A DNA stretch of 64,000 nt from Lepidurus packardi (Eukaryota; Arthropoda; Branchiopoda; Notostraca; Triopsidae). The notes under the pieces were generated by a model, which was not told the origin of the DNA, ran no database searches, and saw only the letters and a list, made by a program, of their open reading frames with translations. Positions 28,652 to 58,230 of this stretch are shown here, in pieces (positions within the stretch are counted from its first letter, which is position 1; every line of letters begins with the position of its first letter). The stretch spans positions 1-64,000 of the forward strand of contig JAKZAN010000134.1 of the NCBI GenBank assembly GCA_023053545.1. Direction: 5' to 3'. The position numbers were made by a program, and so were the translations under genes.

Positions 28652-29536
28652 TCAGCAGCAGCCATCCTCGCCATTGGATTTCTTCTTGTTTCTCTTGCTC
28701 TTGTCTTCCCCGATCGGCTCGTCCGGCAGCATAAAAGAACCCTTGTACGGAGTTACGAGTTCTCTGAAATCGGGACTGGTATCGTATTTACGGTACATGA
28801 TTTCCACGCTTTTTTTGAACAACTAAAAGCAAACTCCATATAATATCTCCCCCATATTTTATGTATTGGACACATTTTGGAGGTTGGCACGAGTAGACCA
28901 ATGATCAAGTACCGTTTAGATGTTGGAGCTATTCTTCGAGGAGATCTCGATGTAGTGGTCTATGCCGTGCTTCTTCACGAATGACTCTGCTTTTGAGGTT
29001 ATCCATTTGCTCTACTATATTGCTTAAGGAGTCCATCAGTAAAAGGAGTTTACAGATTCGTCTACTAGGTCACTTTTAGAGCCGATCAGAATCATCACAA
29101 CCTCCTGGCTCGAAAACTCCTTTACTTCCTCTACCCAGCGATTTAGCGCGTCCAGCGTATCGGGTCTACATTAGGCATTTATGACGGTAGTATGCATTAC
29201 TTGGCAAGACTGAACATAAGAAACACGCATGCGGCGCTCCTGTAGAATGACCGGATCATAGACTTAAATGCTTATTGTCCTGCCTACGATGACAGTCAGA
29301 GTTGAAGGTTTTGTTACAGTGTCCCAAATCTGCACAGTGATGTCTTCGCCTGCGTGCTTGACGATTTTGGAATAAAACTCGAAGCCGACAGTGACTTTGT
29401 AGTCCTTGTTGAAGACATCCTTGATGTATCTGATGACGAGAGAGGTCTTGCCGACGCCCTGTTCACCCACGAGTATAACCTTAAAGCTTAGGCGGGATTC
29501 CCCACTAAAGGCGATCGAGGACCTCTTTTTCAGCAT
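28652..29536 (-). CDS. Rab-family small GTPase, 228 aa
   Basis: Membrane-traffic GTPase. Four introns (29284-29317, 29166-29200, 29015-29053, 28823-28912) are needed; each restores a family motif. Visible motifs: P loop GEQGVGKTSLV, switch I VTVGFEF, switch II WDTAGQ followed by TAA (29272), AFKSMIRSFYRSAA, RWVEEVKEF, G4 as GSKSD (Ser replaces the usual Asn of NKxD), G5 SSK, then NI-X-TLFKKSVEIM. It ends in GEDGCC, a dual geranylgeranylation site. The 55-residue C-terminal extension before CC is basic. The Rab subgroup is not determined. The G4 Asn to Ser change may alter nucleotide affinity. Confidence 0.9.
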
Positions 29537-29627
29537 CAGGGTTAATTGCTAACACTCTAAATCTAATAATATCATATCAAGAGTTAAGTAATTTGGGTTT
29601 CCAAATTCACAATATACGATACCTAAC

Positions 29628-30566
29628 ATGAATCACAGTCTGAAGCCATCATCTAAGCTTTTGGGCCAACAACCACCACACACTGCAGAAACCCAGATTA
29701 AGCCTGAAATCCTTTCACCCATCGCGATTCGCTATCCTGCCTCACAGAGTGCCAGTGCCTATCTCTAAAACTTCCTCGACAAATACTCGGTGCCCTACAT
29801 GTCGCGCAAAGACATAACGTTCCCAGACAACACCTTGTAAACAAGATTTGAGTTTTATGCGCAAACAATTGAAAAAGCCTACAATGTCTTCCTGCAGCTC
29901 TGCAGCTAGTCCCTGAACATGTTTAAAATTACTTATCCTTCTTCTACTGTGGGCTACCAATCGAATGCCGCTACACAGCCTCCTCCTTGTTAGAAGAAAA
30001 TACCAACGCTGAGTTAGTACCAGAAATCAGCAAACAGGTACATTGTCATAGAGGAACAGTCCTTCAAAGACAGAGTAAGATAGGAGTCGAACAGAGATCC
30101 ACGAAGATTCCGCGATGCATAAACTTCGGCTAGGGATGAGGCGAGGCCGTACCAACCTTACCGACGAGAGCCAAGGGAAAGACCCCCAAGACCATAAGCT
30201 TCGCAATAGATAAAGAACGAATACACTATAAAAAAGGATTCCATCAAATAAGAGGAGATGAAGATCCGTGAGTCGAAGGCACCAGAAGCTCAGACCGCAG
30301 TGAACCTTATGAACCATCCTTCTCAAGAACAAAATGCTGCAGTCCAGAAAATGACGATCTAGAAGAACCCAACTATGGAGATTTAAAGAACAGACCAGAA
30401 CAACCCCGAAGCAAGTACTCAAAGCCTCGATCAGCATCCACAGAAAACTGTGCCACAAGTCAAACCAATTGATAAAGACATGGTCAAATGGATAATGAAG
30501 CACAAAAACTAGATCAACCAACTGATTCGCAGGAAAATGAGCACGAAAACCAAAGAGTCATCCTGA
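29628..30566 (+). CDS. Hypothetical disordered basic protein, 312 aa
   Basis: Not recognised. One exon. After a Pro/Ser-rich start (LLGQQPPHTAETQIKPE) comes a helical stretch with aromatic residues, ASAYLQNFLDKYSVPYM and RFEFYAQTIEKAYNVFL (about 50-105), probably a small folded domain. The rest is Arg/Gln/Lys-rich with RPPRP-like segments and ends in MVKWIMKHKN and a Lys/Ser tail. The charge pattern fits an RNA- or cytoskeleton-associated scaffold. It is convergent with the TPR gene; only 47 bp separate the stops. Confidence 0.62.
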
Positions 30567-30613
30567 TAAGACCTGGATGTTTGTTTAGAAAGACTTGTAT
30601 CATCTATGTTGGC

Positions 30614-31439
30614 TCAGCGCGTGTGTATTGCTGGCTTTGTCTTCTTACATAGTTACACCACTTGCCTGTATATCCGATAGAAGAAGCTGTTTTCGGCCCT
30701 GACCAAGTGGTCAATGTTTAGAGTAGGCTCTTCTTCCTCCTGTTCCGTCTCGGACAGAGTTGCCTCGTCTTCTTCCTTCACTTCTAACATTTTCCTGAAA
30801 CGTTATGATTCTTTCTTTTACTCTCCCTTGATTAAGGACAACTCTTGCAGAATGCATTTACGCAGATCTGCATCAGTACAGAATTTCAGGGCATTATTCT
30901 GGGCTTCCCGAGCCAAATCGTTGTAGCCTGCCTTCAGAGCCAGGCACCCTTTTTTGTAGTAGCATTTGGGATGGTCGTGTTCCTTAAGGACCTTGTCGCA
31001 GATCGCAAGGCCTTTGTCGCAGAGGTCGAGCATGTAGTAGCAGGAAGCGATGTTCATGAGAATGGGGTATTTGTATTCATGGTTAGTCTTGTGGAGAGTC
31101 TGGGGGTCTTTGGTGCCCAGATCGAGTCCCATCAGACTCTATAAATATACTTCGATCGCTTCTTAGTATTTCTTATCGGAAAACAGTTTGTTCGCACGGA
31201 GCTTCTTGATATTCACCCATTCGAACTTCTATTCCAGGCTCAGTCCCTCCAGGCACCTTACCACGCTATTCACCTGATTGGAAATGTCGACCTTACGCTT
31301 CACGTCTTCATAGGCACTGAGTTGGTAACAGAATGAGTGTGTAAGGGTGGGGTTGTTACATAGGACGTGTCTGTGCATTGCCGCTGATGCTGGCCAATTC
31401 AAGATTGCCCTTATCGATATGTTCTTTGAGAAATTCCAT
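30614..31439 (-). CDS. TPR-domain protein, 260 aa
   Basis: Three consecutive tetratricopeptide-like helix pairs: KLRANKLFSDKKYQEAIEVY, then KYPILMNIASCYYMLDLCDK with GLAICDKVLKE, then PKCYYKKGCLALKAGYNDLA. This is the arrangement of the C-terminal TPR block of FKBP-type co-chaperones, AIP and TTC9. No peptidyl-prolyl isomerase domain precedes it; the N terminus is only about 50 residues. A 43-nt intron (31317-31359) joins the first exon in phase. Clamp-like Lys residues suggest possible binding of Hsp90/Hsp70 C-terminal peptides, which is an inference. The tail is acidic (KEEDEATLSE) and then helical. Confidence 0.75.
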
Positions 31440-31767
31440 TGCAGTATAGGTAAAAATAATACTATTTTTCTGGCTTTTATTGACAATAGAATCGTAGACA
31501 GTGCCATCAGATGAGATGAGTCTTTAAAATTTACAGATCGAGTGTTTTGTAAGAGTTTAAAGGCGGTGATCCCGAGAATGCCGAGTTGGGGATGGCTGGG
31601 CCCATAAAAGCTAGTAGGGCCTGGGATTAGCAATAATAATTTTAATCGATATTGTGTAGACTGTGCCCCGACATTTTCCAAACTTTGCCTACCACGAGGT
31701 ACCCCTCATTTCTAAATGGTCACCTTTTATTGTCGAAGCCGTTCCTGAGTTGTAATGCAAGGCCACC
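31440..31767. other. Divergent intergenic region, 328 bp
   Basis: Spacer between the TPR gene (minus) and the RING gene (plus), so it should hold both promoters. It is AT-rich with no domain-bearing frame. A long antisense frame (31229-31681) overlaps coding sequence and is a shadow. Confidence 0.45.
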
Positions 31768-32242
31768 ATGATCTGCTGGGATAAGATTTCCACCAGTTGC
31801 AAGTATCACCCTCACGGCCAAAAACCCATATTCATACTCCCTAACCCCTAGTTGCTCCATTCCCCTGCCTAACACCTCACTCTCGACGAACTCCAAGGCG
31901 GTTTCACCATTGGAGCCGCCTAAACTCGCATCCCTTCAGCTCTGCTTGATGACCTGCTCGACGAACTGGTCCTGCTGACTGCGCTGCCGGCAGAGGAACG
32001 CCTGACTCGGCGGCTGAGACTGCAGAAAGACCAAGGCAGTTGCTGTATCTGCCTGGAGGCATTGAAGAAAGGTTGAGTCGTTTAGTGATGTAATTGTAGG
32101 ACAGAGAGCTAGCAAGACAGCGTGTAGACACTATTTCCACCGGGAGTGCTTGAGGCGGTGGAAAGGAAGGACGTGCCCGATGTGCCGAAGCAATCTGAGC
32201 TGCGAAGTTGTTATGAAGGAAGGTGGAGAGAAGAAGAGTTGA
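31768..32242 (+). CDS. RING-H2 finger protein, probable E3 ubiquitin ligase, 148 aa
   Basis: A C-terminal RING-H2 (C3H2C3): CCICLEALKKG, then after a 28-nt intron (32072-32099) ACRHYFHRECLRRWK and TCPMCRSNL. All eight metal ligands are present, and the Trp that contacts E2 enzymes (RRW) is conserved. The splice is needed to bring the two halves into frame. The N-terminal 95 residues are helical (LLDDLLDELVLLTAL) without a known domain. There is no transmembrane segment, so it is likely soluble. Confidence 0.82.
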
Positions 32243-32537
32243 AATATTGTGTAAGGGTCATAAAAATGTAGAGATTTTGTTAGAAAAATGGATAGTAAGG
32301 TGTAACCGGAAGGACAGGACTTCTGCTAGAGACGTTGGGAGAAAATCTATTATAAATTTAACTTTAAATACCGAGTTTAATAGAAATTATTCATAATTTT
32401 TGACTGTTGACTATCCTTGTGTTTTCCTACCTGATCTAACAGTCATTATTAAATACCAAATCTTACCCACCCCAACCACTTCGTCTAACAAGAATACCAT
32501 AAAATGCACCTTCAACTGCCAGCTCAATAAATTAAAA

Positions 32538-33229
32538 TCATGCTGTTCCCTCAGCTCCCTCTATATCTTCTTCGATTCGCTTCAACACCGCCGCCATCTT
32601 AAACACTTCTCCCAACAGGTAAGAAGGCGTAAGCTTGATCAGCTGCTTAGAGAAGATCCCTTCTAAAAAGTGCATTCCTTGGGTCGCACTGCAAAACGCA
32701 GGCAGCAATAGTCCCAGCGAACTTACTCCGAACGATTCTTCGAATAGACATTGGTAAGTAACCAGTATGTGGATGTGTTGCATCACGTCTTGAGACAGTT
32801 CTTTGAAAAGAGGATGCACTCCAAGATAGTCGTAGGGGGTCGTAAAGCTCAGATCATCTGATCCTGTGACATTACGCATCTCCTCGACCATGACCCTATA
32901 TTAAGCAGCGCTAAAAAGTCCACCAGCACTTTATACGAAGCTATCCATACCAGGGGCAGAACCATTTACTTTCTAAAACAGCAGATAAAGGAGAGAGAAT
33001 TGAGAAAGTGTTGTACCTCATAAGATAGATAGGCGGCAGAATGAATGGACAGCTGATAGTGGTTGGTTGGCAAGTCCTTAACTTTCTTGATGTAGAGATC
33101 GAAGATTTTCTTGCCTATGAACTGGATATGATTTGGAACGGAAGAGTGTTCACAGTACTAGAGAATAAAATGGAGGGGAGTTACATCGGCGTACCAGCCA
33201 TAGAGGGTCTCGAGGTGGCTAGGAACCAT
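32538..33229 (-). CDS. Cyclin-like protein, 215 aa
   Basis: One 44-nt intron (32973-33016). The first exon, MVPSHLETLYGWYADV to YLSYE, and the second, KVNGSAPGMDSFV on, give a cyclin box: FIGKKIFDLYIKKVKDLPTN, SIHSAAYLSYE, YRVMVEEMRNV then LSFTTPYDYL, matching the helix 3-5 pattern ending in the conserved L.F.L..PTP.DFL. Cyclins activate CDKs; the partner cannot be told. The C-terminal fold is shorter than usual. A possible 38-nt intron near 32720 was considered but shifts into a less cyclin-like frame, so the unspliced frame is kept. Short length resembles Pho80-type cyclins. Confidence 0.6.
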
Positions 33230-33466
33230 AAAAGAGGGGAGTGAGTAAGGGTTGACAATGACACGGGTATAAGCCTGAGAGAAGTTAAAAGAAGAGTGGT
33301 GGTACCTATTCTCGGAGGACGAGCTTTATCAAAGGGTTAATCTGGGCTTGTTTCGAGTGCATTCTTCCTCAGGTAAGAGTTTTACGAGATAATATATCCT
33401 GCTTATTGTTTTTGTGTTTGATTTTTTGATTTTTTTGATTTTTAATTATACCCACAGACACCATCG

Positions 33467-34223
33467 ATGCATTTCAAAGTTCACTCTATCCCACCCCCAT
33501 TCCTATCACCATACAACCTCTCCCTCTCCCGTTAATCTAATAGCTCGGCCTATATCATATGCATTTTGGCTATTCCCGTCCGCACAGTACCTTCAATATT
33601 CTTCTTCAACTCAACTTTCCCGTGCTGCCTGGGGCTCCTACCTGTCGGGGCTGTACGCAGCTAGCAGAGGACCAGGAAGGGACACATATCCATTCCTTAT
33701 AGAAGCGCAATAAAAGTATGTTTAAAAAATTTATTGCAAATGACCAGTTTTGGGAAGCTCAGATTAATGCCAATTATACACATGATACTTTCTGACATGG
33801 GATCACTCCACCTGATTAAATGACTGCAGCTGGACTCAAAACTACTGAGAAATACAGGATTGGGCCTACAACCTTCTCGAAAACCCACTACCTTCCCTCC
33901 TCGACATCTTTAGCACTTGGAGTCATCTTTCCGAGGGTGCCAAGTCCATCGAACATCAATACCGAAATTCTCTATCCCTGCAGTTTATAACTTTAAGGGA
34001 AGGGAATTTAGAGGGTGAAGACCAAGGATCTGTTTCTTTAAGCGACAGAAAAGACTAAGCAGGTATTCTGCTGCAATGGTGGAATTCAAACCAACAATTC
34101 AAGAGATTTCGGTGGGGAAAGGAAAGGCCAAACAGGTTTAGGGGTTCTGGGCAGGGTATTTTCCCTTTTAAAGGGTTTTTGGGTATTTACAAAAGGGGTC
34201 ACTAAAAATATGATCTTTAGTGA
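33467..34223 (+). CDS. Doubtful gene, two exons, about 204 aa
   Basis: ATG 33467 opens a frame with a hydrophobic stretch (AYIICILAIPVRTV) that reaches a GTATGT donor. A 142-nt intron (33716-33857) would join it in phase to DWAYNLLENPLPSLLDIFS, KSIEHQYRNSL and a Trp/Arg/Gly-rich end (WWNSNQQFKRFRWGKE), stopping at TGA 34221. A second frame over the same DNA is also open for about 600 bp, and third-base bias is weak, so neither is secure. No family recognised. Confidence 0.25.
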
Positions 34224-34457
34224 ATTGGCTAGATTAGCCAAGTTAATCCTATTAATTTACTATTTTTGGCTGGGAACGCCTTCCCTAAAGCTCTTGGTCA
34301 CCTACAAAATATCGAATATCAGCGATTTCTTCATACTCGACTTGTCTCCAATCCAGAGGCCTGAATATTTCCCTTGGGTTCTCCTAAGATAAACAAGTAA
34401 TCTGCAAGATAACACTGTTTACCGTCGAGTCAGGTTTGAGGAAGTTGGCTGGCAATA

Positions 34458-34949
34458 ATGTGTGAGGGAGATGTGGACAAGATGAGAAGGATAAAGGAGA
34501 TCGAGTAGATGCAGGAAGCAGAGAGCGGAAATTCGAACGAATCGAAGGCCATAGATATTAGGCGACGAGTGAAGGAGAGCAGGCCACAGGATGCTGGGAG
34601 AGTTGGAGGGAACCGTGTTAGGAGAGAGTGTGAGAGCTCGTGGGTGCTATCTGGAATAGGAGGTGTGATAATTAAATATTGGAGTGTTTTTGGATAGCGC
34701 AGCATATCTAAATGGATAATTAATGATGATGGATTAAAAACTGGGGCCAAGTATAACGACCAAAGTCAATAAAATTTTTATCAAATCCTATTCTTATAAA
34801 GGGAAGCCAAGTAGCATATTTTGGGTGTGTTGGTTAATTCTGATGTGAGTTTTATCAGCTTCATTCGAACAATTCATTATTGGACGTGTAACTGTCCTGG
34901 CTATATGCCTAACAGCAATATTCCCACTCTGGGGAGTACTCAGGGCTGA
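34458..34949 (+). CDS. Doubtful open reading frame, 163 codons
   Basis: The first 70 codons look coding (charged helix DKMRRIKEIEQMQEAESGN with X possible, then RRRVKESRP), but the later part drifts into AT-rich, low-bias sequence. It may be a real small exon with missing introns or a decayed gene. No domain. Confidence 0.22.
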
Positions 34950-35143
34950 CCCTTTAGGGAAGCTGTAGTCGACAGTCTTGTTCCCGCCACTCCCCGCACT
35001 CTGGATCTCACAAAACTATCTACTCTACAATCATAGCCGCTCCTCCCTTACCCATTCCTCCTCCTTCTAAAAGGTTCTCTTAATTTCTGCGTCATTCTCA
35101 ATGACTATATTAAAATATTCGACTACCAGTATACACATGCATT

Positions 35144-38100
35144 TCAAATCACCATAGTCACCAATATCGGGTCCACATTGATTTTACGGTACAGCAGTAG
35201 TACTACTTCCCCTCTATTCACCTACTATAAATCTATGATCTTGGTTTTCTCGTTGTTGCAGTACACCCACAGGTTCTTGTTCTTGAATATACTGTACCAT
35301 TCCTCCTTCTTCGGGTCGTTATCGCTCAGACACATCAGCCCGAATAGCGTGTACCCGCCTCCTTACTAATCCTGGATTGTGATCTTGCCCACATCGAGTT
35401 CCTGGAAAAAGTCGATCTTATTCTTGTAGATCACGTACTAGTCCTTGCTCTTCTTGTATCTATTCAGATTGATCACTAGAACGTTTGGTCTCACATTCAC
35501 GAAATGCCTCATGTTCGCCAGAGGATACTTGCAGGACTTACACGCCCTCTAGATCTTCGTATCCACTTCGGAGTATGACTTGAAAGACTCGTAAATTGAA
35601 TTCCGCTGCTTTTACACATCTCCTCTGACTCCGGCGACCTGTTCAGCTTCGTGGGCTTTAGGAATGCTTGGGGCAGCATCCGGCATGATCCAGTCACACA
35701 CCACTACAACCCGTTTGAGCTCGAACTCCACACCTAATGGGGAATCGTAATTCGGTTCGCAGCCGAAACAGTACCTCTGGTCTGAAAACTCACCTTCAGA
35801 ACTCTTAATAGGGACAGACCTTTTCCTGCACTTGGCACATTTCTCGGTGGAGTTTTCCTCGAGTATCTTGACCCTGTACTCTTCGTTGTTGCTGTCGGCT
35901 GCTGGCGTCGTCTTTTTCTTCATCGAGCTGAAATTGTTATGTGAGCCAAATATGTAAGTCTAAAAGATGAAATGGGTGTAGAATTACCAAGCGTTTGATT
36001 TCTCGATACACGAAATCGCAGAGATCGCTCCAGGTCATCCATTCCACGATATTGATGATCGACGGCACAGAGATGTAAGAAGTCTTTCCTTTCTCTTTGT
36101 CCCATTTGCGGTGCAGAACCTCCATCCTCAGATAGGGTTTCTATTTCAGCTTCTATTTGAATGGCTTAATCTTGCGCAGGTCGGTCTCGATCTCACCGTC
36201 GTAATATCTCAGCTTGACGATTCCTTTACTGACCTTGCTAACGTCAGTCAGCTGGCCCACCTGCCACTCTGTGTAGCCATGAAAGTCCACATACATATCT
36301 TTTTTGAACAGGTCTGCTGTGTTCCTGAAAGCTAAGGTATTGTTGTACACTGAATTATAGACTTCCTCATCCAGTTCATAGAAGTAGATCTCGGCTGAGG
36401 GATTGAGGTTGAGCATTCGCAAGGTACTACCAAAGTCTGACTTGCTATAGTGTTTTCGGAATTCACAGTTGGCCACCTACGAAAAAGCGAGTCTTTTCTG
36501 AGGGAGGTTCACATGGTATGCGAATCGCTCGACATATTAGATGAATTTCTCGCTACGTCTAATCTTGATTGCGTAGACAGTCATCGGCTCTTTCCTGCCT
36601 GGCAGGGGACAAAAAGTGGCTTTATAGAGCATTTCCTCATCCTCGGACACCGCCAGATTGAGGATGAGTTTGTTCTTTGGTTCTTGTGTCTCGAAAGTGC
36701 AACTCTCGCAGGTTATTTTCGAGCACTCCTCGAACTAGAAGAACCTCTGCATGGGGTTCTAGTTTTTTACTGCGACATCGATGTGTTCGCTAATAATCAG
36801 TTCTTCATCCCTGAGCTCGTTCTGCAGACCCTAGATAACAAGCTGTAGCATCTGGTTCGCTAGCACTTCTTCTTCCTTGAGGATGGGATACAGATCAGTC
36901 AGTTTTTTGTAGATCTGATCAGTGGTTAGAGGTTCTTGTTTCTTGTTGTTGTCGCGGACATCGACTGATAAACGCGATATCAACTGGTTCAGAGAGTTTT
37001 TAAAGGTGAGTTATTTCTTCAATAGCTTTTTGTATTTCTTTTTACACAAAAACTCGTCAAAGTAGGGTACGTTCACCAGACACTGCAGCACAGCATTCAG
37101 TGTGCTGCTGTTAAACACTTTGTTCTATGTCGACTTGCATTTCATCAAGCCCCGCACGACGTTCTTGTGGGGACACTAGAAAGAACTATCTTCTGCCACT
37201 CCTTTGATTACATCTAAAGGATACACGACCTCGCATCGTGTGGAAAGGCCTCTGAAATGTACCCGGTATTGACCATTTCGGACATCCACTATAAAGCTAT
37301 TCGGATAGTTTTTGGAGTCCTGGTCATCTTATTTGTTAGATTTTATGAGGAGAGGGCGTCCGAAGGTGAGTCCTCGAGTCTTTTGGGACTAATCAGTATA
37401 GTCATAGAGTTGATGAAATTGCTACACCAGATTGTTAGGAACGGCACAAATGTAGCCATGGTTGAGGTTGCGGTTTAGGACCCTATGAGTAGATGGCAGA
37501 GGAGTCCACTCGTAGTCTCCAATACGCTTAGATAGAACTGAATAGGCTTCTTCCTTGCTTTCTTCGGATGTGAGGAGGACTCTGATTTCAGAGTTAAGAC
37601 CGATCATGATGGCGATTTGTTTTTCCTCGTTAAAGGTTAAGTCAGAGTTCACAGTGAGTTTGTTGATGATGACTGGGTAGAACTATGGGTTGAGTCGCTC
37701 GATTGCAGGACCTCCTCTGTAGAGCTGCTGCAGTTTCTTCCAGATGTCCTGAGGGATCGGCACGAAGTCTTTGAAAAGCTATAGTTCTTTCTTCCCATTA
37801 TATCTGAGTTCTCCTTCGAATTCTCCGAAAAGGTGGAAGTTGTTGATGCGGGGTGGTCTCTGCAGGATCTCCTAGTCGTTGCCGCCTTCGTGAGCCAGCG
37901 ACTTCTTGTGCTGTTACTTGAACAGTTCTTTTTGAGTCAGGGTGTTGATGTTTTTATCTTCTTCGGGCGCCTTGACTTCGATATTTAGGGTGGCGGGGCC
38001 AAACTTCCTGATGTATCGGAACCAGTATTCAGTGAACCACTTACTGTCCACAAGGTTACACTTCATGCCATTCTCGATAGTAATCGCCAGCCTGCGGTAA

Positions 38101-38900
38101 TGGTACCACCTTTCATGCTCTTTGCGGATGGCCTCCTTCTGCTCAGACATCTTTTGTGATAACAACTCCAGTTGAGTGGAACCTAGCGACGGCATTTTCT
38201 CAAAATTTTATTATCCTTCACGTTTATCGACTTGCATGGACTCTATGAGCTACAATTATTTCTCGATGTCTGTCAGGTCGAACATCCATTTCAGGAAACT
38301 AACTTCATAGTTGATCATGAAGGCCTGGTTGAACTCTTCTACGCTCACTGAGATTTCCTTCTGCCCTTTGAAGAATTCATGCTTCTTGCCCGAGCTGCAG
38401 ATCTCGAAGAAGGCGAGCTGGTCTCTCAGGGAATTGATCGACCCAACGATCTGACTATTTTTGAGGATGCCATAGATAGCAGCCACGACTCGACCGAACT
38501 GGGCCTTGGGGGTGTATTTGATGACTGCCAGCCCGCCAATGATCTGGTAGGTTTCCACATAGCTCGAGTTCGTAGTATCGAAGTACTCGAAAATCCTTTT
38601 TTGGAGACGTTGAGGCACTTTCCTGAGATTTGGGAAAAACTCCAGGAACAGCGGGAAGTTCATGTGATTCTTCTTTTCGTGCTTGCAGATGTCTAGGATA
38701 CGCTAGTCGATAATGTCTAGTTAGTAGCTCTTCCACTTGCGCATGAGTTCTACGAGATCAGTGGGTTCTACCCCGAAAGAGCGTCTATAGTTTTTGTTTT
38801 TATGCCTCAGATCAAAGGTGCGTTAAGTGGTTGTCGGTTTATTATCTGGGAGGATGTCGCTCGGACCCTGGGACGGAGGTTTGGTGGCGATGTTGCCCAT
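35144..38900 (-). CDS. EF-hand/DUSP/USP32-like protein, catalytic residues lost, 1,242 aa
   Basis: Starts MGNIATKPP, a consensus for N-myristoylation. Residues about 30-225 resemble the EF-hand region of USP32 (FPNLRKVPQRLQKRIFEYFD). A DUSP-type segment (about 235-330) has HERWYHYRRLA and DSKWFTEYWFRYI. The USP fold begins near 570. The Cys box reads NSSTLNAVLQCL (597-608): Ser599 stands where the nucleophile Cys of NTCYMNSxLQ should be. The zinc knuckle pairs are kept (CSKITCESC; EKCAKC; CKSCKY). At the His box, YTLFGLM (1174 on) is followed by SDNDPKKEEWYSIF, with no HxG or GHY, so the catalytic His is gone too. It is therefore predicted inactive. One 28-nt intron (35960-35987). USP32 acts on Golgi and endosomes; here a scaffold or ubiquitin-binding role is inferred. 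Confidence 0.88.
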
Positions 38901-39292
38901 GGAGGATGCTAACCGGTATTCTGTGGGTCGGGATGGGAGGAAAGGACTGCAACAAGTTAGTGATTTTGTGTAATAAATCGATCAGATGAGGTAATATAAC
39001 ATTTTTTAGGTATGCTCCTAATTATTTTGGTGGCCAGCTGTGAATGTGGGAGTACAAGGATTAATATCGGATGATCTAGTTCTTTTATGCCCAGGGGATG
39101 TCAACTAAAAACTGCACAAAATCAAAAGAGAGATAGAAAATTGGCACAAATAGTGATATATCTGATTGGGATTTAGAATACCGGCGAGTTGAATGTATAA
39201 CTGCGCAGCGCATACTCTCTTCTATCTCTGTCCCCATCTACATTGATATTTACTATATTCTTAACACTCAGAAGAATCCCCAAGCTGCCCTC
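38901..39292. other. Divergent intergenic region, 392 bp
   Basis: Lies between the start of the USP-like gene (minus) and a small plus-strand gene. The first 80 bp are G-rich, the rest AT-rich. It contains no frame with a recognisable product and likely serves as the shared promoter. Confidence 0.45.
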
Positions 39293-39529
39293 ATGTCTCG
39301 ACAAAGTATCAACATGCTCTGCTCCTACGAGAACAAATACCCCATCTCCGAAAAACTCCCCACTCCTTCTCTCAAACACTCCAACAAGACAAAGCCAGCC
39401 CACCCCTGTCCTCTCAACATCTCTGAATCTAATTTCGAAGAATTATACCAAGCCCAATACTCCTGGGGGGACTTCAAAATTTCTCCCGAGTTCATCAAGG
39501 AACTGCCTCCCAAAGTCTTCAACCGCTGA
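39293..39529 (+). CDS. Small hypothetical protein, 78 aa
   Basis: A complete ATG-to-TGA frame with no internal TAA/TAG. Codons favour C/G-ending forms (AAC, CTC, AAG), as in the neighbouring real genes. Sequence is MSRQSINMLCSYENKY at the start, Pro/Lys-rich in the middle, and FEELYQAQYSWGDFKISPEF near the end, which could be a short binding helix. No family is recognised. It ends 108 bp from the convergent stop of the proline-rich gene. Confidence 0.55.
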   Translation: MSRQSINMLCSYENKYPISEKLPTPSLKHSNKTKPAHPCPLNISESNFEELYQAQYSWGDFKISPEFIKELPPKVFNR

Positions 39530-43388: not shown

Positions 43389-43554
43389 AGAAAGGGCAAA
43401 GCTAAAAGGGATTATTTTAAGTTATAAGAAGGGATTAGGTTTCCATGGCTTCCCCAGCATTCTAAGGCTTATCTTACGATTTAAATCGATACACCATCAA
43501 TTTTGAAATACATCAATAAAATCCGTCGCCTAGCTTCCTTCAACCGCCCTCCCC

Positions 43555-46500
43555 ATGCATAATCAACCCACTGGTATTCGCGCTATGGCTAGCACTAAGT
43601 CCTAGCTTGCTGTCCCATTCATTTCCTTCAGTTCGGACAAAGGCTTTGAGCTCAACCCTGAGGCTGAGGCCTTCCTCCGTGAGATACCTGACGATAAAAA
43701 AATTGGAGTCATTAGTATTGTCGGCAAGTACAGAACTGGCAAGAGCTTTTTCGTCAATCGCGTCCTCCTCAATACCAAGAAAAGCGGATTCCAAGTCGGA
43801 CCCACTATCAACCCTTGTACTAAAGGGCTTTGGATTTGGAAAAAGACTCTGAAGACTACAGGTCCTGACAGTTAAAACATGGAGACCATCCTAATCGACA
43901 CTGAAGGCTTTGGAGGTATGGACGAGAACAGTAACCATGACTCCCGAATATTCCTTTTCAGTCTGCTTCTGAGCTCGTACTTCATCTACAATAGCGTGGG
44001 AACCATTGATGAAAACGCACTTAACACCCTGAACCTGATCATCAACTTCGCGAAGGATATCGAGTCGAAATCTGGAGGGAAGGGAGACGAAGCAGTGTTT
44101 CCGTCTTTCCTGTGGGTAGTCCGCGACTTCACTCTCAAAATGGTGGACAAATAGTCCGGTAGATAGCTGAACTCAAAAGAGTATTTAGAGAGCGCGTTGT
44201 AGCTAATGCCCCCTAAGAACTAAGCTGCTGAAAATAAAAACAAAATTAGGAGGCTATTCAAACAGTTCTTTGTCGATCGCGACTGTGTCACAATGGTACG
44301 GCCTGTGGAGGATGAGAGAATGCTGAAAATGCTGGATTAACTCGATAACAAAGAAATCAGACCTATCTTTATCACTCAGATGCTGGCCGTACGCGACATG
44401 ATCTTCAGTCGCATCAAGCCTAAGACTATCAAAGGCAAGATGCTCAATGGGTCTATGTTTGTAGATCTCATAAAAGGCTACATCGAAATTATCAACAAAG
44501 GCAACCTCCCAACAGTTTAGAATGCGTGGGTCTATGTTTGCAGAAACGAGGGTATTAAGGCATCTCAAGAGGCTTTCCGAGAGCTATAGGGAAAGTTACA
44601 TCAGATCCTGAAGTCCGGGCCTCTGAGCTTAGAATAGTTTGCAAAGCTTCAGTCGAAGCTGTCTGCTGAGACCATTCAGTCTTTCAAACTAAAGTCATTG
44701 AACAGTGAAGAGTCAAACCCAGATATCCTGTAGGCTCTAAATAAGCGAATGAATAATCTGCTGAAGGATTTTGTGGAAAGGAATAAGTAGAGCATGAGCT
44801 AGAAGTACAAGTAGCTGAGCCAACAAGCTGTTGATAACCTCAAGGACAGGCTTTTCAGGGATGACTACAAGACTTATGCTGAGTTTCTCGATGACTTCAA
44901 TCAAGCTAAGGAAGAGTACGATAAGTTGGCGGGAGAAAGTCCTGACAAGTGGACTGTCTTCAATGAACTCACGGAGTCTCTACATAGGATGGCAGGGGAG
45001 ACTATCACTGCCAAGATTAATAGCTCCCTTCAGGCAGAAAAACATCTTCTCGAGGAAAGAGTCAACCAGAGATAACAGGAGCTTAAGGTCAAAAGAGAAG
45101 AGTTCTTAGAAGAAAGAGAAACATTGAGACAGCGAGTAGAGGAATTAGAAAGAGGACAGGCCAGGATGGCAGGAGCGGAGTCTGCAAACTCGAAACGGCT
45201 ACAAGAAATGCGGGAAGAAAGGGAGAAGTTGCTGGACAGGTGCAACAGACTTGAGAACAGCAACCAAGATAAGCAAATGTAGCTGGAGCGTGTAAAGAAC
45301 GAGTCCGCCAAGTTCAGCCAGATCGAAATGGAAGAGGCCAGAACTGAGATCAAAATCCTAAGGAGTAACATGTAGAAGGAGAGGATGCTGCATGAGATGG
45401 ATAAAGGGTACCATGAAAAAGAAGTATCCAGCTATAGAGAAAAACTCACTCTCCTTGAGAACGAGAACCGACGCCTCAAGTCTTCACAGCACGAAATTTT
45501 CTAGTAACTGGAAAACATTAAACAACAGTTGGAAGAGAAGCAGCAGGCTGAGACGGAGTTCGAAGAAACCAGAGAAGCCTTCCAGCGCAAGATCGAGGCT
45601 CTTCAGGCTGAAAATAACCGTAAGTCAGAATTGCTCAGCGAGCATAGCGAATGGGTCTTGGAAAAGTCTTACCTTGAAAACCAGGTGACTTTCCTTAAGA
45701 ACACCCTGAACGAGCATAAGAGACTACACGATGCCCTCTTGGTAGCCCTGCAGCGTAACCCAACATCCCTATATCTGACCCATCTGCTTAGAATCGGTAA
45801 ATTCGTCTGAGGTGGACAACAGCAACGAGTTGGTGCAGACCAACAAAAACCTGTCTTCAGCCATGGAGAAACTTGAGGCGAGGTGTCGACTACTGTAGGA
45901 AAAGTCAGAGAAGCTCAAACGCTTCAAAAAAATAGTAACGCTTTCAATCTAACCATAATCTTGTTCTATTGGTTTACAGGTCAAAAACTGTACGGCTCTC
46001 CAGTGCCTCCACTGTTCGAAGTGGATCGCCAATACATCCTTCCCGATGCATCTGACTAGTTGCTCAGAGAGTACACTTGGACGTCCGGGAGATAAACCAG
46101 TCTCGAGCAACAACTTCCCTGTGGATACATCGAGTCTCCACATAACAATCAGTCAGACTCTCATCAAATAACTCGAAGAAAACAAACCCTTCACCGAGTA
46201 CTACATCCAGCTTTCCCTCCACAGTCGAAAGTGGACAGTTACTCGTAAGTATAAGAATTTCTGTGAACTCCAACAAGCACTTTTGCAAACATTCCCAACG
46301 ATGAGATTCCCTGAGTCTTCTAATGCCATCATTAACATCCATACTGATATCAACCAGGTCATCAATTCAAAGCGGACTGTGGCCGTTGAGGAACGCCGTA
46401 AAGCCCTACAGCAGTTCATGCGTGATCTGTCCAAAATTGACCAAGTGCGGAACTCGAGGCCTTTCCGAGAATTCATCAAATTGGATGAAAACCTAGAGAT

Positions 46501-48221: not shown

Positions 48222-48670
48222 GTGTGTGTTGGATATGTGGGTGTAAAGTGATTTTAATTGATTATTGGATACGAGCGTAGACCCATATTGGTGTGAGCAG
48301 AAGGGTGTATGGAGTTATAAGGGAGAGAAGAAATAAATAGGTAGAGGATGATAAAACGTACGTCAGTTTGAAATTCAGTCTGATGACAACACCGCTAACT
48401 GAACTTTGGGTTAACCCTACCATACAACATACTATCCAGTTTGACCTTAGCTTTTTCATTGTAGTTTCGAGCATATTTGCAAAGGTTCTCCTCAGCCAAT
48501 AAAAAATAAAGAGGGTGTTCTTATGCGTGGGTGTGCACCATGCATATTTCATAGGTATACATTTTTTATAACTGAGAAGGGTTTTAAATACCTTTGCCAT
48601 CGATAATTCGTGCGATTGGGTCGGATAAAAAAGTAGAACAATTGCTGGGAATAGTCGATGGTTGGAAAAG
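48222..48670. other. Right subtelomeric spacer
   Basis: About 450 bp between the EF-hand gene and the G-rich telomere. Apparent long frames here are extensions through the telomeric repeat (Pro/Thr or Gly/Trp repeats) and are not genes. A match to the Tetrahymena chromosome-breakage 15-mer was looked for by eye and not found. Confidence 0.5.
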
Positions 48671-48833
48671 TTGGGGTTGGGGTTGGGGGGGTTGGGGTTG
48701 GGGTTGGGGTTGGGGTTGGGGTTGGGGTTGGGGTTGGGGTTGGGGTTGGGGTTGGGGTTGGGGTTGGGGTTGGGGTTGGGGTTGGGGTTGGGGTTGCGGG
48801 TTGGGGTTGGGGTTGGGGTTGGGGTTGGGGTTG
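48671..48833. repeat. Internal telomere tract, (GGGGTT)n
   Basis: About 27 hexamers with two irregularities: a G7 run near 48,685 and one GCGGG near 48,797. The G-rich strand runs 5' to 3' rightwards, exactly as at a right-hand chromosome end, and complements the left (CCCCAA)n block. Unlike a telomere-telomere fusion, no C-rich block follows; unique sequence (CATTGGATACTAG) starts directly. Confidence 0.95.
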
Positions 48834-49025
48834 CATTGGATACTAGATCTGAATGTAGATCGGATTTGAGTGAGCCAGATCCGATATCTAGGGGCACTTG
48901 GTGCTCACTTACTATAAAATGTGCAACAGAGGAGAGCTAGACCACCCTCCAAACATTAAGGAAATCCAGCAGTGCCCATAACGAATATATAAATACATTC
49001 TGTTTATAAATATTCCATACCACTC

Positions 49026-49520
49026 ATGGACGAAGAAGACACCCCTATCTTTTATAATCCACGACCCGACTCTCGTTTCTACTAAAGGCCTTATCTTCAC
49101 TGTGAGAACTGTCAGAAAACCTCTTTCAAGTGCAGAAAGTGTCTCCACGACATGGCCTCTACCTTAGGCTCCCAACCTCCCCGCCCGCCCTCCCGAGCCG
49201 TCAGAACCGCCCATACCTCTCCTTCAGTCTCTTACTTCTTGAGAACAGTCCGGCAGGGCGCAGAAAGCAAAACAAGATCAGCAAGGAAGGACTATTAAGT
49301 GCAATACAGAGTTAAGAATAAGTACGAGTTATATCTGGAGGGGTGCATGGAGCGTCGAATTCTGCCAAGAGCCCAAACCGATGGGCAAAAGCATATGAAG
49401 AAGATCAACTACATAATCGAACCATCGTCGAAGCCAAAGTTCGAGAAATGGAACAAGAAAAGCTTCGATCGGATCAAACACACCCTGATGTACGGACTGG
49501 CCAAAGCAGGACACCTATGA
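49026..49520 (+). CDS. Small protein with CxxC pairs, 164 aa
   Basis: Not recognised as a family. After MDEEDTPIFYNPRPDS come two CxxC pairs, LHCENCQKTSFKCRKCLHD, a possible zinc ribbon. The middle is Ser/Pro/Arg-rich. The last 60 residues are Lys-rich and helical, ending with SFDRIKHTLMYGLAKAGHL. Another frame over the 3' part also looks protein-like (49343 on), but this frame has far better C/G-ending codons. It is the first gene right of the internal telomere. Confidence 0.62.
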
Positions 49521-49701
49521 GACGGCTATAATAGGCGTCGATAGGCCTTTCAGCCTATATTAAAATATACAGTTCTCAAGCTCTTTTCTCTGATATTTTT
49601 CTATTTCTATACATGGAAAATCGCATCAGTCTTCCATAATCAATTCAACGCCAAAATAACATATCGGAAAAAAATATCGACTTTATAAATCATTAACCCT
49701 C

Positions 49702-52700
49702 ATGAACTTCAAGCTTGAGGAAGCCACCCTCATTGTCGACCCCAAGGGCTTCCCCTTCTCCGCCCTTCAACTCCCCAATATACTCCCGCCAATCGACGAG
49801 ACTTAGCGATCCCTCGCCCACCTAAAAGACACCCTTCTTGACAATTGGGTTCTCTTCTAGCCATTAGACATCGTCAACCTCGATTTCGCTCTTGGCCGGC
49901 TCTTCAATTCGCTGTCCCATGCCGTCACCAGCTACAAATGCGCACTCACATGCAAGGATTATCAGTAGATCGCGCGCCTCTAAACAACGCTGAAAGAACT
50001 TCTGTCGATCATGGAAGATACCACAGAGAGATCTTTCTTCTATGAAATCACACTTAACCTCCAGAAAATATACGGTCACTTCGGATCAATAAACAACCTC
50101 TACTACCTTACTGATGACTTCGTCTTGCTGCGCCACCTCTCCGAAATCCAGCTGAGGTTCGTCCAATATAACAATAACGAACGCGTGCTCATCGAGGATC
50201 ATGCCAGCCTTAATGCTCTCCTGATCAAGTCAATCATCAACAAGGATAACAACCTGTTTTGGGATCCCCGTAGGCTGTTTTCTGCGCTCCCCGCCAGTCT
50301 GGAGTACGAAGTCAGTTCTGAAATTAAGATTGATTTGGTCGAGACCCTCAATAAGTACCCATCCACTACACCAACCTTCTCGATAATGGAGGATCTGAGC
50401 AAAACTCATCTACTCAATGAATAAGATAAGATCGGTTTGCATTTCAACCTCAGGCTTGCCAAGGCCTGTGGAAATGCAAGACAAAGTGCCATGTTCATAG
50501 AGATGAGCAAGAATCTCTATTTGTGCAAGGAGCAGGTCTACCCCCAGGAAAACCAGTATTGGGAGCAAATATACTCTAGCTGCATTCAGCTGAAAATCGA
50601 AGAAGCACACCCCGACATCCAGATCAACCAACGTCTAGCTTCTGCTTGCTCCAAGCCCGAATTAGTGAAGTACTTTAGGGCCAAACTCGAGCAGAACCCG
50701 TAAGACTCGCTTGAGTACTGGGAAAAATTACTGGTGAGTGCCAACTTCTACCAGAAGAACATCAGAGAAAATGCTGAGAAATCCGAGCTGGACCAGATCA
50801 TTCTGAGCATCATAATAAAAATCATGGAACACCCTAGATTCTGGGTCTGCTCTGAGGATATCATGGAGTTTTTAGAGGCAACTCACGAGCATAACGGCAG
50901 GATTCTTGACGTCATCTTCGACCCCTTCCGAAAATTCATCGACAGCCTTTTGATCGAGGAGGCCAAAGTCGACGATGTGTATAAGCTGGAGTGCAGCATG
51001 ATGCAATTCTTCAAGTTCTTCTTCGCCGCCCAGACCAACCAAACTACCCCTTATTTCCAGCAGCTCCTCAGCCCAGGTTTCTTCAAAAGGATCCGCAACT
51101 ACCTGTCATAGTGTAAAAACACTGCTTCCAACAACAAACAGTTGCGCATCGTCCACTTCTTCTTCAACCAGATGCTTTTCTTCGCGCAGTCGATTCCCAG
51201 CTTCGACCAGTATCTGATCAGCTGTATTGATGAGGTACTTTAAGACCTCACTTTGATCTTCGATTGGTTCTTTTCCAACAACATGCTGCTCTTCAAATTG
51301 AACTTCAAACTCATACAGAAATTGGCCAAGCCTGAATCGACCGAACAGAATGATCCCAAAATCATTGCCATTCAGAAGCTATTTTGGAGCATTATTGGCA
51401 AGTTCCTACTCTTCTGGGGACCCAGGAGCTACATCCAAGAGGATATCAGTGAACTGGCTGACAAGTATCCTCTGATTGTGCCTGAAATAGTCGCACTCCT
51501 GCCCAAGCTGTTCGAAACCAATTTGGTCGAACTCAGCCATCTAAAACGCATCCTCAGCGAGGAAAAGAAAAACTACTCTCCCAGTCAGCAAGAGTATGCC
51601 CAGTGCTGGCTCACCTTTTTGACCTTCAAGCACAACATGATCTTCAAACACTTACTCTACACTGTCAGTTTCCTCAAGGACTCCATTGCCCAAACTGAGC
51701 TCAAGTACCTCATCGATTCTGCTATCTACTACGCTTCTCCCTTCGTAACTCTGACCCATAGTTCCCTTATCCTCGATGAAATCGATCAACTTACTTCTCA
51801 CTATCCGATTGAAGTAGTTGAGTCCATTTTCTCGTATGTCAAAAAGGAGATTGCTGCCCTGAAAATAGAAAATCTCGAGGCTATTTCTGGGAAGCTAATT
51901 TGGTACAACTTCTGGCAATCAGACAGACGGCCATTCATTGAGAGTCTGGTCTGCACAAACGAATTGGACTACCACCAGTTCAAAATGTTGGGAAGTCTGC
52001 GTCGACTCGAGGTGTTCGCGAGTCTGTTCAGCAACTTACAGCAGAAGCTGAATGAGGATGCTAAAAACTCAATAGCTCCCATAAAAACATCCCACCATAT
52101 TCTCTATGCAAAGCTTGCCGATATCTACAAAAAACTAGGCCCAACTTTTGCTCGGGAAATCGTGGACAACTTCTACGCCAAACAGCAGTAGTTGAGTGCC
52201 ATCACATCAGACCCCACCCTCACTGCCTATGCATGCAAGAAGATCGCAGAACTCACTAAAATTAATCTGGTCAGAAACAACTCTTCACTCGGATTTGATA
52301 AAGCCCAACTCCTCCCAAACTTCGCTGTTGTCAATCTGTCCAAAAGTCTGGAGAGTTACTTCTAAACTGTGGATCCCAGCAAACATGAAGAAGCACTTAC
52401 CTAATAAGCCACCAATCCTTCATACTAATATTGTGCTGCTTCCCACGCAAGTAATTAGTACAAAGCTCTCACCTTAACAGTCGAGGCAATCCGCAGTCTC
52501 GAGTATTTCTGCGCCTGGAGCAGTGAGGCTGAAAAGATAGTCAAGAAAAATATTATGTTGCCTCTGAGTATCGAGTCGCTAGAGAAAATGAAGGTACGCT
52601 ACGATCAACTATCAAATATCGCAATGAGCATTGATACTAAAGACCCTTTTTTCTACAGACTGACTGAAGTACACATTCGGCAGATACGCCGGCATTTGGT

Positions 52701-55700
52701 GAGCTTCCTCTTGAGCGATCACTTCAAGATCTCCCAAGATTCGACTGAGGTTTATACCGGTTTCCAATAAAGGTCAGAGGCGCACTTTACTTTGTATAAG
52801 TCTATTCTCAAGTATATCTGGAGTGTGGTGGGATACTATGAGGATATCCACAGTCCCTTCATCGAGACTACACAGACATTCTTCTCAACATCTTTGCCCA
52901 ACAAAGAAAATTCAATGACTATTGTTTTGGGGCTCCTGGATATGTTCTTGTACTCGACATTTGAGCTTCAGACCAGAGTTAGGAGTGCTAGCATGGTGCA
53001 GTTAATCACCTTCTACTAGACTCTCTCGGGAAAACCCAAAGAAATCTTCAACTCCACTATTCTCTACTACTTCAAGATTCTTTTCCAGAAGTTTGTTCCG
53101 ATATTCGAAATACCCCAGGAGATCACGGAACTACTTGTAAAGTAAGAGCTAACAACTGAACAGTAGCTACTTCCCACCAGATACCCAGTGGACAACCTTC
53201 CTCATATCACTGCTTCCTGCACACAAGCCATGATCACTAATCTCATCGCTAGAGTCAACTTCTCTTCGCTCTCCGAGGGCATACTCAAGATATATGGCTC
53301 TGCTGGTGTTACGTTGCAGTACCTCTAGTACTTGATCAACCTGTCATATAATCTGATCGGTCACACTACTCTGCCTGAACATGATCTGGAAACCCTGGTC
53401 CTCGACGTCTTCGGTAACGTCCCTCTGCTCCTCAGCGATCTAAACTCAGACGATATCGATGTGCATATCGATCGGGTGCTACAACTCACGTATAACCTCT
53501 ACTCGATCCCTATCGATCTCAAAGAATCCAGCGCAGCACTGACGAAACTCCTCTTCATGTGTATCTTGCGCAAGCCAAAACTTGAAAACTTCCTCAAGCT
53601 GAGAAAGTTCGAGTCTTCCTTAAAGACCTTTAGGATGATTTCTGTATCATATGAAGCAGAACTAGCATAATCCTGTAAGTCTCACACGCACCTCCTAAAC
53701 TGCGTCTATCTTGGCGAAATCCTGCATACACGGCTTCTCAGATCAAACTGGCAGATGATTCTCGAGAATCACGAATAGTCTGAAGTACAGACATTGATCA
53801 ATAATCTGATGATCAGCCGCGAACCAACGCAAAGCCTTCTGTTCCTCAACAACTATCAGGTTTTCAGTCCTCAATTAGCGTAATTGCTGGACCAGTTCGT
53901 GTGCAAATACGATGCCTATATTGACAATCTGGACCGTTAATCCCTCAGTTTCTATATTTACTTCAAAGTAGCCATATCCCTTGCCTCCAAGTACCCTACG
54001 CTCACTGCCCAGCTATTGAACCATCCAGCCACTCCTTCCCAGTCGTTGTTCGATTTCATTTTTTCTCAAACAATGAAATTCACACACTTACTAGCTGTTT
54101 AGTTTACGTATGCTCTTGTGAAGGTCAACCCGGGATTCTGTCTTTCCAATAATAGTCTCACCCCTCTCAATGTGCTGCTGATGAGACGAATCATGTCGAC
54201 ACTTATGAATACCCTCGAAAGCTTCCAGCCTTCCTGCGATAATAACCTTATCCTCATAAATGTCCTAAAGACATGCGAGATTGTAGCAAAGAATTGTGAT
54301 AGATGGTATATGTCAGCGTACAAATCCGAACAACCTATGCCTCCCAATCCTGCCGTCACCCTCCAGCTTTTGGATAGACTTATCAACATTCTGCTTCGGC
54401 TGCTCACGAAAATCAACGATTCTACGATAGTGGAGTTAGTATTAGGACTCCTGAGCGTAGTTCTTTCCTGCCGATTGCGCAGAGTCAAGGTGGAAAGAAA
54501 CGTTGACTTACAGAACAACATGACCTACTATTTGAACAATTAGTTGGTGTCTCTATTGAGTGGGGAAAAATCCAATCAACCTTCACTCAAAGGCATCGCA
54601 AATCTTGAGATTGAGTAGACTATCGAACTTCCCGAAAGTCTCAACGTTGTTCCTCAAAAAAGATTATCTAAGGGAAAGTCAGAATTACCAGTCAACTGTT
54701 TCCTGAACTACAACTACACAATTTACTCCTGCCAGGAACAGGACCTTCTCAATAAGGAGTCTATTAAAATGGCTCACAAAATATCTTCTTTAGCTGAGGC
54801 AGCCCTCATAAATAGATGTGACTCCTATATCAACGAAACCCTCGCCAAAGACCTCGCTTCCATCCCAACGGAACCCTCATTTGAGTTCCACGTCCCTTAT
54901 GCCACAGCACCACCTCTATTGACAACCAATAGTCAGCCCTTGCCTTTGCAGCCTCTTGACATCCAGAACAGTCAGGACGATATCAGTCAAGAAAACTAGG
55001 AATATAAAAATATTGAGGAATAGCAATACTAGATGGAAGGTCTTATCCCAATGGAAGGGATAGGCTGTTCCAGTTTTGATGATCTCATGGTCGAGGATGG
55101 AATCATAGAGGAAGAAGACAACACTGAGACGGAGGCAGATCCCAATATGACAATGGAGGGGAGTGAAGGCCCCAAAGAGAAAAGCCTTCTGATTGAAGGG
55201 GATTCTGGACAGACAGCGTTGAAAAGGCTTGAAAAGCTAGACATTCTGGGCCGCATCGAAAGGGGAGAGGAGGTTGCTCATCTGCTCCAGTTCGTAGCAG
55301 ACGAGGATCTGCAAAAGCTTTCGAAGACAGCTGATGGAAAACTTCTTTTTGACATCGCTAAAGAGAGATCGGCTCGTGGCTTCAGTTTCGAAAATCACAA
55401 TCTGTCGATCCACTTCTCGATAGACTAACTGACCTAAATGCCACTGGAAAATGAGACTCGCTACATCAACTAGCTCTACCCAGGCTGCATACATAGTGAA
55501 GTAGTCAAGCTAATGTTCGAGGTTCCCAGCCTTTACCCAGTTCCCCTCATCGATCAGGATGTCCGATCCAAGATCATGCATTGTTGGATGCAATGTGAAG
55601 ATGAGTCTAGTAAAGCGTCGCTGACGAGCTGCATCGAATCTCTGTGTTTGAACAATGACAACCTGGTATTCTTTGCCCAGTACTTCTACTTCCTGCTCAA

Positions 55701-58230
55701 TCTAAAAACGAAGTAGGCTGTGAGCCTGAGTTCTGCCGGAAAGCTACCACATGTAACCAGCCTGAACAAGATTAAAAGTAGCTGTGGCCAATTGATATCA
55801 GTGCTTTTCGAGAAGAAGATAGGCTTGCCAATCTGGCTATTCGCAGAGTACAATCCAGCTCAGGTACACATCTAAAATCTACCTGCTTTCCGAGAGTTCG
55901 GGGAGATATCGACGTTACTGAAGAGAAAACAGAACATTGAGAGTGCTAACTCAAAGAAACTTATCGATCTCCTTATAGAAAACACAGCTGATCACTCATT
56001 CGATGGGGATTTCTCGGAAATCATACTCACCTTCAAGAACTATATAGAAAAAGTCGAAAGGCATTCTACTCTCAGGTATCCTCTTTATGCCTTGGAGGAA
56101 GGCAATTGGGAAGACTCTGAAGTCATTGAGAGGCTGGCCGAAGTGATCCTCAAACAGCAGAGACGCCTCAAAAACACTTATGCCTATAGCAACATAATGA
56201 AGGTGATGCTTCAATTATACCCCGTAGCCTACGAACCATTCATCTATGCACTGTTGAGAATAGCAGGAGACGAGTTAAAGAGCAGCGTTGAAGCCTGGAC
56301 GAAGGAGTTCAAGAAATTCCAAAGCCAAAACAAACAACTAATTTCCGATGATGGCATGACAAAAGTAGAAAGGATGGAAAAACTGGTGGACTCCATTCTG
56401 GTGCAGTTCAAGAAGCAAGAAGAAGGGAGTACGAGGATCGACTACTTGAAGTCTCTCCTAGCTGATCTCAGTTTGGACCTTGTCCCGTGGTTCAAGGAAT
56501 GGAGGTTCCAGGCTGAAAATAGAGAGGACATTTCCTCTTTTAGCAAAGCCAGGTTAGAACTCAAGAAAGCCCTTGAGTCTGCTAGGCACACCAGAAACTT
56601 CCAGGAGCATGAGAAACTTATTGAATAAACCAAAAGACACGATGCAGAGTTCAGTGGGTGGAAGGCCAAGTTCAAGACCGATTTCACTAACGAATACATT
56701 AAACCTATACACTAGACAGCCTCAGTCTCTCTGATCAAGGCATTCCAAGGCTCCATATCACTCATTTAAAGCTACAGACAGATTTTCTCCTGTAACATTT
56801 CCGAAGAAATCGAAGTCGCTTTGCCAGTCTACAAGCAACAGAGTCTCATCTGGAAGTGCATGCTGGCTTACTTCAATATCTTCAGCGAAGAGTAGTGCAT
56901 CACTTATCACAGCATGGCTAATTTATCAACGAAGTAAAACATCTGGTCCAAGACCTAACTGCATGGAGCTGGGTCAACTCCTGCAGATGTGCGTAGATCA
57001 AGCCGCAAGAAACTATCGATTCAACCACCATCTGCATTTGATATACAGAAATTAGTCAAGAAGTTATCCCCACACTCAGATCTAATCAGCCACTTTGTCA
57101 AGGATGGTAGCAAATTAATGAGAGCCCTAGTCAACCTTGGGAACACAGAGTTTAAGCTGAAGTACTTAAGAAGGAGAAAGCCAAACAGACCCGTCAAAGA
57201 GATTGAGGTAGATCGGAGCAAACTGTGGTTTGATACTATCCATCACATCGACGAGGACTTCATCACTAAAGAGATCAAAATAAAATTCAAGGGCGAAATC
57301 GGACTTGATTATGGAGGTCTGACACGTGAATGGCTGACTCTAGTTACCAAGGAACTCTTTGATCCCTATTACGGGTTGTTTGAGTTGAGCGCCAACAAAC
57401 GCACTATCCAGCCCTCGAAACACTCCTCTTTGGTGCCACACCATCTTATGCACTTCAAGAAGTTGGGAACCCTGGTCGGCAAATGTGTGGCCGAGGGTTG
57501 GAACATCGATATCAACTTTACAAAATCATTCTTGAAACACCTGCTGGGCAGTACACTCTATGTTAATGATCTGGAGGACATCGACCCGGATACCGCACGC
57601 TCTCTCATGTGGATTCTAGAGAATGAAGTTGATGAGTCCCTTGAAATCACTTTCAGCTATGAAGAGTAGTATCTAGGGGAAATCAGGACTATTGAACTCA
57701 TGGAAAACGGCAGGAACATCTACGTCAATGACTCTAACAAAAAGGACTACGTGAAAACTCTGTGCAAATCCAAAATGACTGATTCCATTCGTGCCCAGTC
57801 CAAATCCTTCATGGACGGCCTCGAATCTGTCGTGTCCTTTGACGCACTCAGATGTCTGAACTACAAGGAGCTGGGTCTGTATCTCTCAGGAATGCCCAAG
57901 ATTGATCTGTAGGAGATGCAGACGTACTGCAAGTACAACAACTACGACAAAAAAAGTGTCACTGTCCACATGTTCTGGGAGATCCTGTCCAAATTCGATG
58001 CTCAATAGATGGCGAACTTCTTGTTCTTCATGAGTGGGTCTTTCAAGGTGCCATACGGTGGGTTTAAGGAGTACCCCATAATTCTGAACAGGTGTATGGA
58101 CGTGAAGTACTTGCCTGTGGCCCACACTTGCTTCAACACAATCGACCTCCCTGACTACCAGAACGCTAGTGCACTGGAGGAGAAGCTGAGACTAGCAATC
58201 AGCGAGGGCAAAGGATTCAACGTGAGCTGA
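49702..58230 (+). CDS. Giant HECT-type E3 ubiquitin ligase (HUWE1/Tom1-like), 2,842 aa
   Basis: One uninterrupted frame of 8.5 kb with roughly 60 in-frame TAA/TAG codons and no TGA until 58228. The C-terminal HECT domain (about 2480-2842) has LDYGGLTREWLTLVTKELF, PHHLMHFKKLGTLVGKC, the LMWILENEV turn, ENGRNIYVNDSNKKDYVK, LYLSGMPKIDL, and the catalytic Cys2810 in VAHTCFNTIDLP, then GKGFNVS at the end. The end pattern and length match the HUWE1/Tom1/UPL1-2 group. The N-terminal 2,000 residues are helical repeats (armadillo-like DUF908/913 region in relatives). An acidic patch (EEEDNTETEADPN, about 1810) sits where HUWE1 has its acidic region. Three TAG codons in HECT (residues 2656, 2737, 2769) lie at positions acidic in relatives. 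Confidence 0.92.

Follow-up and report, generated by a model that had tools for sequence, protein, structure and literature searches.

The window, a stretch of 64,000 nucleotides that forms part of contig C123 in a 108.6-Mb assembly of 344 contigs, is almost certainly ciliate nuclear DNA (probably macronuclear) in which UAA and UAG encode glutamate and UGA is the sole stop codon (NCBI translation table 30), most likely from a peritrich. Comparison with protein families shows that both TAA and TAG (hereafter TAR) are Glu in this genome. The Glu of table 30, rather than the Gln of table 6, is supported by the columns of a kinase alignment, by those of a Ras alignment and by scores against the Pfam model PF00069.

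A six-frame scan of the window with TGA as the only stop yielded longest frames of 2,878, 1,611, 1,061, 767 and 613 codons, whereas the longest frame in 30 first-order Markov simulations had 489 codons. When all three stops were counted the longest real frame was 443 codons, and with TAA or TAG as the sole stop it was 700 or 639 codons, respectively, neither of a length comparable to that found with TGA. The long TGA-only frames were therefore confirmed as real and far beyond chance. The read-through frames matched the Pfam domains HECT, WDR90/POC16 beta-propellers and CFA20, PAF67, Pkinase, DUSP/UCH, GBP, GBP_C and DNAJC11 (Table 1); in one domain search four of ten frames gave no Pfam match. 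The HECT profile (290 bits) was matched as far as its position 305 (of 306), which falls on residue 2877 of the 2,878 residues, directly ahead of the TGA, so that TGA is a true end there.

Table 1. Positions of genes, codons and other features discussed in the text (window coordinates)
Feature	Position	Strand	Remarks
HSF DNA-binding-domain match	1910..2119	+	profile positions 1-57; no TAR inside
DNAJC11-like frame	10336..11688	+	9 TAA/TAG inside
eIF3l (PAF67) frame	14307..15965	-	TAG at codons 25 and 109, TAA at codon 31; conserved domain without TAR
Protein kinase frame	19304..20956	-	Pkinase match of 192 bits, TAR translated as X
WDR90/POC16-like frame	23514..28349	+	1,611 codons, among them 12 TAA and 14 TAG; CFA20 domain and beta-propellers
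TAA in NI-X stretch of Rab	28916..28918	-	
TAA at Glu of DTAGQE in Rab GTPase	29272..29274	-	
Rab intron	29284..29317	-	34 nt, GT...AG, between WDT and AGQ; predicted, read from the sequence
Rab exon with P-loop	29318..29482	-	Pfam Ras positions 1-55
Ubiquitin-specific protease (USP) frame	35796..38981	-	DUSP and UCH; 26 TAA/TAG inside
GBP-like GTPase frame	43507..45810	+	20 TAA/TAG inside
Giant HECT E3 ligase frame	49594..58230	+	2,878 codons; 21 TAA and 23 TAG inside, TGA at end
TAG in HECT	57667..57669	+	facing Asp (TOM1) / Glu (RSP5)
TAG in HECT	57910..57912	+	facing Asp (TOM1) / Glu (RSP5)
TAG in HECT	58006..58008	+	facing Glu (TOM1) / Gln (RSP5)

The protein kinase domain at 20171-20854 contained two TAA codons, and the single TAG lying well inside the eIF3l frame was that of codon 109. 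The statement of the initial annotation that every confident gene requires read-through was slightly too strong, since TAR is absent from both the HSF DNA-binding-domain match and the conserved domain of eIF3l. Screening of the window against RNA families gave a single match at the gathering threshold, a tRNA-Leu(aag) gene at 59326-59406 (58 bits).

A Pkinase profile search of the assembly gave 136 matches, of which nine lay on C1-C6 and the other 127 on smaller contigs. TAR was present in 120 of the 127 small-contig matches (194 TAA and 210 TAG, 404 codons), against five matches with TGA, one each. Together with the longest frames and the end of the HECT profile, these counts bear out the earlier proposal of TAA and TAG as sense codons with TGA as the only stop, the latter as in table 30. 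They also argue against the frames being pseudogenes or products of sequencing errors, or TAR being read through only occasionally. Such a reading predicts TAR in random columns and TGA about as frequent as TAA, neither of which was observed; moreover TARs were located at catalytic Glu positions and exchanged with GAR between paralogues (see below). Nothing was observed in favour of this reading, and we regard it as extremely improbable.

Scoring of TAR codons as Glu or Gln against protein families, a check proposed with the initial annotation, returned Glu for both codons in the kinase and Ras families. Sixty of the 127 small-contig kinase domains were aligned with TAR as X, and column support was scored for each codon with its own sequence left out, a procedure which assigned 61 of 61 sense codons correctly. 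The 60 domains contained 102 TAA (93 scored) and 103 TAG (98 scored). For TAA the summed support was +117.8 bits for Glu, +14.8 for Gln and -78.2 for Lys, and for TAG +101.1, +10.7 and -23.3 bits, respectively, placing Glu above Gln by 103 (TAA) and 90 (TAG) bits. The mean Glu-minus-Gln difference per codon was +1.11 for TAA and +0.92 for TAG, compared with +1.31 and +1.30 for GAA and GAG and -0.73 and -0.72 for CAA and CAG. Bootstrapping over kinase sequences resulted in 95% ranges of 48.7-162.3 (TAA) and 46.5-135.3 (TAG), with one and none of 2,000 replicates, respectively, at or below zero. Individual codons were noisy, Gln being favoured by 40 of 93 TAA and 36 of 98 TAG, and removal of the three invariant Glu columns reduced the lead of Glu over Gln to 14.0 bits for TAA and 59.8 bits for TAG.

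Based on columns at least 70% conserved, 24 of 25 TARs were found at Glu, namely 12, 5 and 7 at positions which we take to be the αC, hinge and APE glutamates; the remaining one, in a Pro column, adjoins another TAR. In the αC column all 47 sense residues were Glu, and the 12 TARs came from as many kinases. At a threshold of at least 60%, TAA stood at 21 Glu and one Gln, and TAG at nine Glu, three Pro, one Gln and one Ser. Gln made up 35% or more of just one kinase column (40 of 58), in which two TARs stood. Among 21 paralogue pairs of at least 50% identity, TAR was opposite Glu codons 78 times, Asp 13, TAR 12 and Lys 11 times, and opposite Gln only 6 times, although TAR and CAR are separated by a single transition.

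The Ras alignment comprised 28 sequences, seven of them from C1-C6 and used as references only, and 13 TAA and 22 TAG were scored. TAA received +24.0 for Glu, -7.5 for Gln and -6.4 for Lys, while TAG received +40.7 for Glu and -7.6 for Gln, leaving Gln behind by 31.5 and 48.3, respectively. In Ras columns at least 60% conserved, all five TARs were at Glu, four of these at the Glu of DTAGQE. The ten TAR-richest among the fetched kinases were also scored with PF00069, a model independent of this genome; the totals were 2341.4 bits for TAR as Glu, 2301.0 as Gln and 2292.3 as Lys, a deficit of 40.4 bits for Gln. Glu was ahead of Gln in nine of the ten kinases, the exception being L106, in which Gln was favoured by 1.0 bit.

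The genes of the window alone do not separate Glu from Gln. Pfam scores summed over seven frames and nine domains, with WDR90, Rab and HSF left out, were 1056.4 bits with TAR as Glu and 1055.9 bits with TAR as Gln. HECT, DNAJC11, kinase, DUSP, GBP and MMR_HSR1 leaned to Gln by 0.1-1.7 bits, whereas UCH favoured Glu by 1.5 bits and GBP_C by 4.2 bits; PAF67 scored the same under both because the domain holds no TAR. Three overlapping secondary models (PK_Tyr_Ser-Thr, GTP_EFTU and RsgA_GTPase), each 0.1-0.9 bits higher with Gln, were kept out of the sum. This tie would be compatible with TAA and TAG as Gln, that is with table 6, the code of Tetrahymena and Paramecium, described in the accessible text of PMC11687900 as the commonest variant code in ciliates. 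Against it stand the deficits of Gln in the kinase columns, the Ras columns and the PF00069 totals and the TARs that occupy the αC and APE glutamate positions, which make the Gln reading very unlikely. A split code like that of Oligohymenophorea sp. PL0344, with UAA as Lys and UAG as Glu, appears in the part of PMC10553269 available as a relative of the peritrich code; with TAA so far in favour of Glu and against Lys in both kinase and Ras columns, it is scarcely credible here.

The codons named in the initial annotation were located where it had placed them, 57667, 57910, 58006 and 24912 being TAG on the plus strand, and 28916 and 29272 TAA on the minus strand, which is that of the Rab gene. 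The TAG at 24912 lies in GG-X-D of the WDR90/POC16-like frame. For the end of the HECT frame the best solved matches were TOM1, RSP5, SMURF2 and HUWE1. Its three TAGs had been aligned with acidic residues of relatives, which held in five of six comparisons with TOM1 and RSP5, but not for the codon at 58006, which faces Gln in RSP5. The best single site of that annotation, the TAA standing for the last residue of DTAGQE in Rab, was confirmed in its position: as read from the sequence, the exon after the 34-nt intron begins GCA GGA CAA TAA, so that the TAA at 29274-29272 directly follows DTAGQ. The Rab intron is very short. The Glu call was right, on thin evidence; it was not new, the peritrich code being already known.

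By analogy with other ciliates, UAA and UAG would be decoded by tRNA-Glu genes with UUA and CUA anticodons, and an eRF1 no longer recognising UAR would leave both codons free for such suppressor tRNAs. As far as the accessible text of PMC10553269 goes, the reassigned codons of PL0344 are believed to be read by suppressor tRNAs with UUA and CUA anticodons, and all ten with CUA resemble tRNA-Glu. An Rfam tRNA search scored 63 of 5,192 candidates in the present assembly, and ARAGORN, run on the loci of 30 and then of 10 more, detected none with a TTA or CTA anticodon at these loci, which also take in some of the other 23 scored candidates. Pattern searches for suppressor tRNAs on contigs beyond C36 returned known Arg and Lys tRNAs and five sites which ARAGORN did not recognise as tRNAs; genes with introns or unusual T-arms escape the pattern, and further candidate matches occur on C1-C6 and, once, on C16. 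The small ciliate contigs with lengths at hand all exceed 50 kb, and shorter ones may be absent from the assembly. Given these partial searches and possibly missing short contigs, the absence of a suppressor tRNA means little. Tightly packed tRNA clusters at C42:330219 (Arg-Pro-Ser) and C52:219683 (Gly-Leu) look bacterial.

A ciliate eRF1 was not found in the assembly with PF03463 or TIGR03676, both the searches and the assembly being incomplete. PF03463 matched genes on C219 and C5, which we take to be Pelota from the way they read, and exons on C2. TIGR03676 matched an exon-split gene on C2 and, weakly, the loci on C219 and C5, none above the cut-off. The release-factor gene on C2 has one TAA or TAG in four of seven exon matches, taken for the same effect of matches running into introns as is described next for the kinases of C1-C6.

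The assembly seems to be mixed, with small contigs from a ciliate and six contigs (C1-C6) resembling another eukaryote. The latter reach 10-14 Mb and carry exon-split genes, while many of the ciliate contigs are of 50-140 kb. Of the nine kinase matches on C1-C6, four were without a stop and the other five held 11 TAR and 4 TGA, against 404 and 5 on the small contigs; this mix is what matches extending into introns would give. C1-C6 appear to belong to a separate eukaryote, which probably uses the standard code. The 8.6-kb HECT frame matched C123 only, so that C1-C6 yielded no germline copy of it. C123 and C150 were 99.3% identical over 3.5 kb (C123:81587-82105, C150:69615-70133) and probably represent alleles there; a codon-swap test on this pair was discarded, the stretch being too small. 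At C214:20826-22540 two adjoining kinase matches on opposite strands, in frames of 652 and 661 codons, contained no TAR, in contrast to almost all other small contigs. A 29-base stretch occurs in many near-identical copies, mostly 1-6 kb apart, and among the matches listed forms a repeat array at C4:415790-473716 and C36:298437-323323.

UAR as Glu is reported for the peritrichs Campanella umbellaria and Carchesium polypinum in the accessible portions of PMC10553269, PMC4967479 and PMC11687900, the second of which used transcriptomes of the two species. With respect to TAA, TAG and TGA no difference was detected between the present code and table 30: both TAA and TAG are Glu by the kinase and Ras columns and the conserved positions, and UGA is a stop in both. 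Table 6 shares sense UAR and UGA as the only stop, but assigns Gln where kinases, Ras and PF00069 give Glu. The PL0344 code, as presented in the available text of PMC10553269, shares UAG as Glu and UGA as stop, and differs in UAA, Lys there and Glu by the kinase and Ras columns here. The code makes a peritrich the most likely source of the DNA, and PMC10553269, in the part available, has UAR as Glu evolving once, in Peritrichia. That the DNA comes from a ciliate outside the peritrichs, with a second ciliate origin of UAR as Glu and possibly living with the co-assembled eukaryote of the six contigs, is considered unlikely. A literature search returned no papers on ciliate cobionts and codes.

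For these contigs the translation table is settled. Under table 1 the genes look broken, and under table 6 every TAR-coded glutamate, the catalytic ones included, would be mis-assigned. The assembly carries a warning as well, since it probably mixes eukaryotes with different codes. For the peritrich code, studied through transcriptomes of two species according to the accessible text of PMC4967479, these contigs add genomic data.
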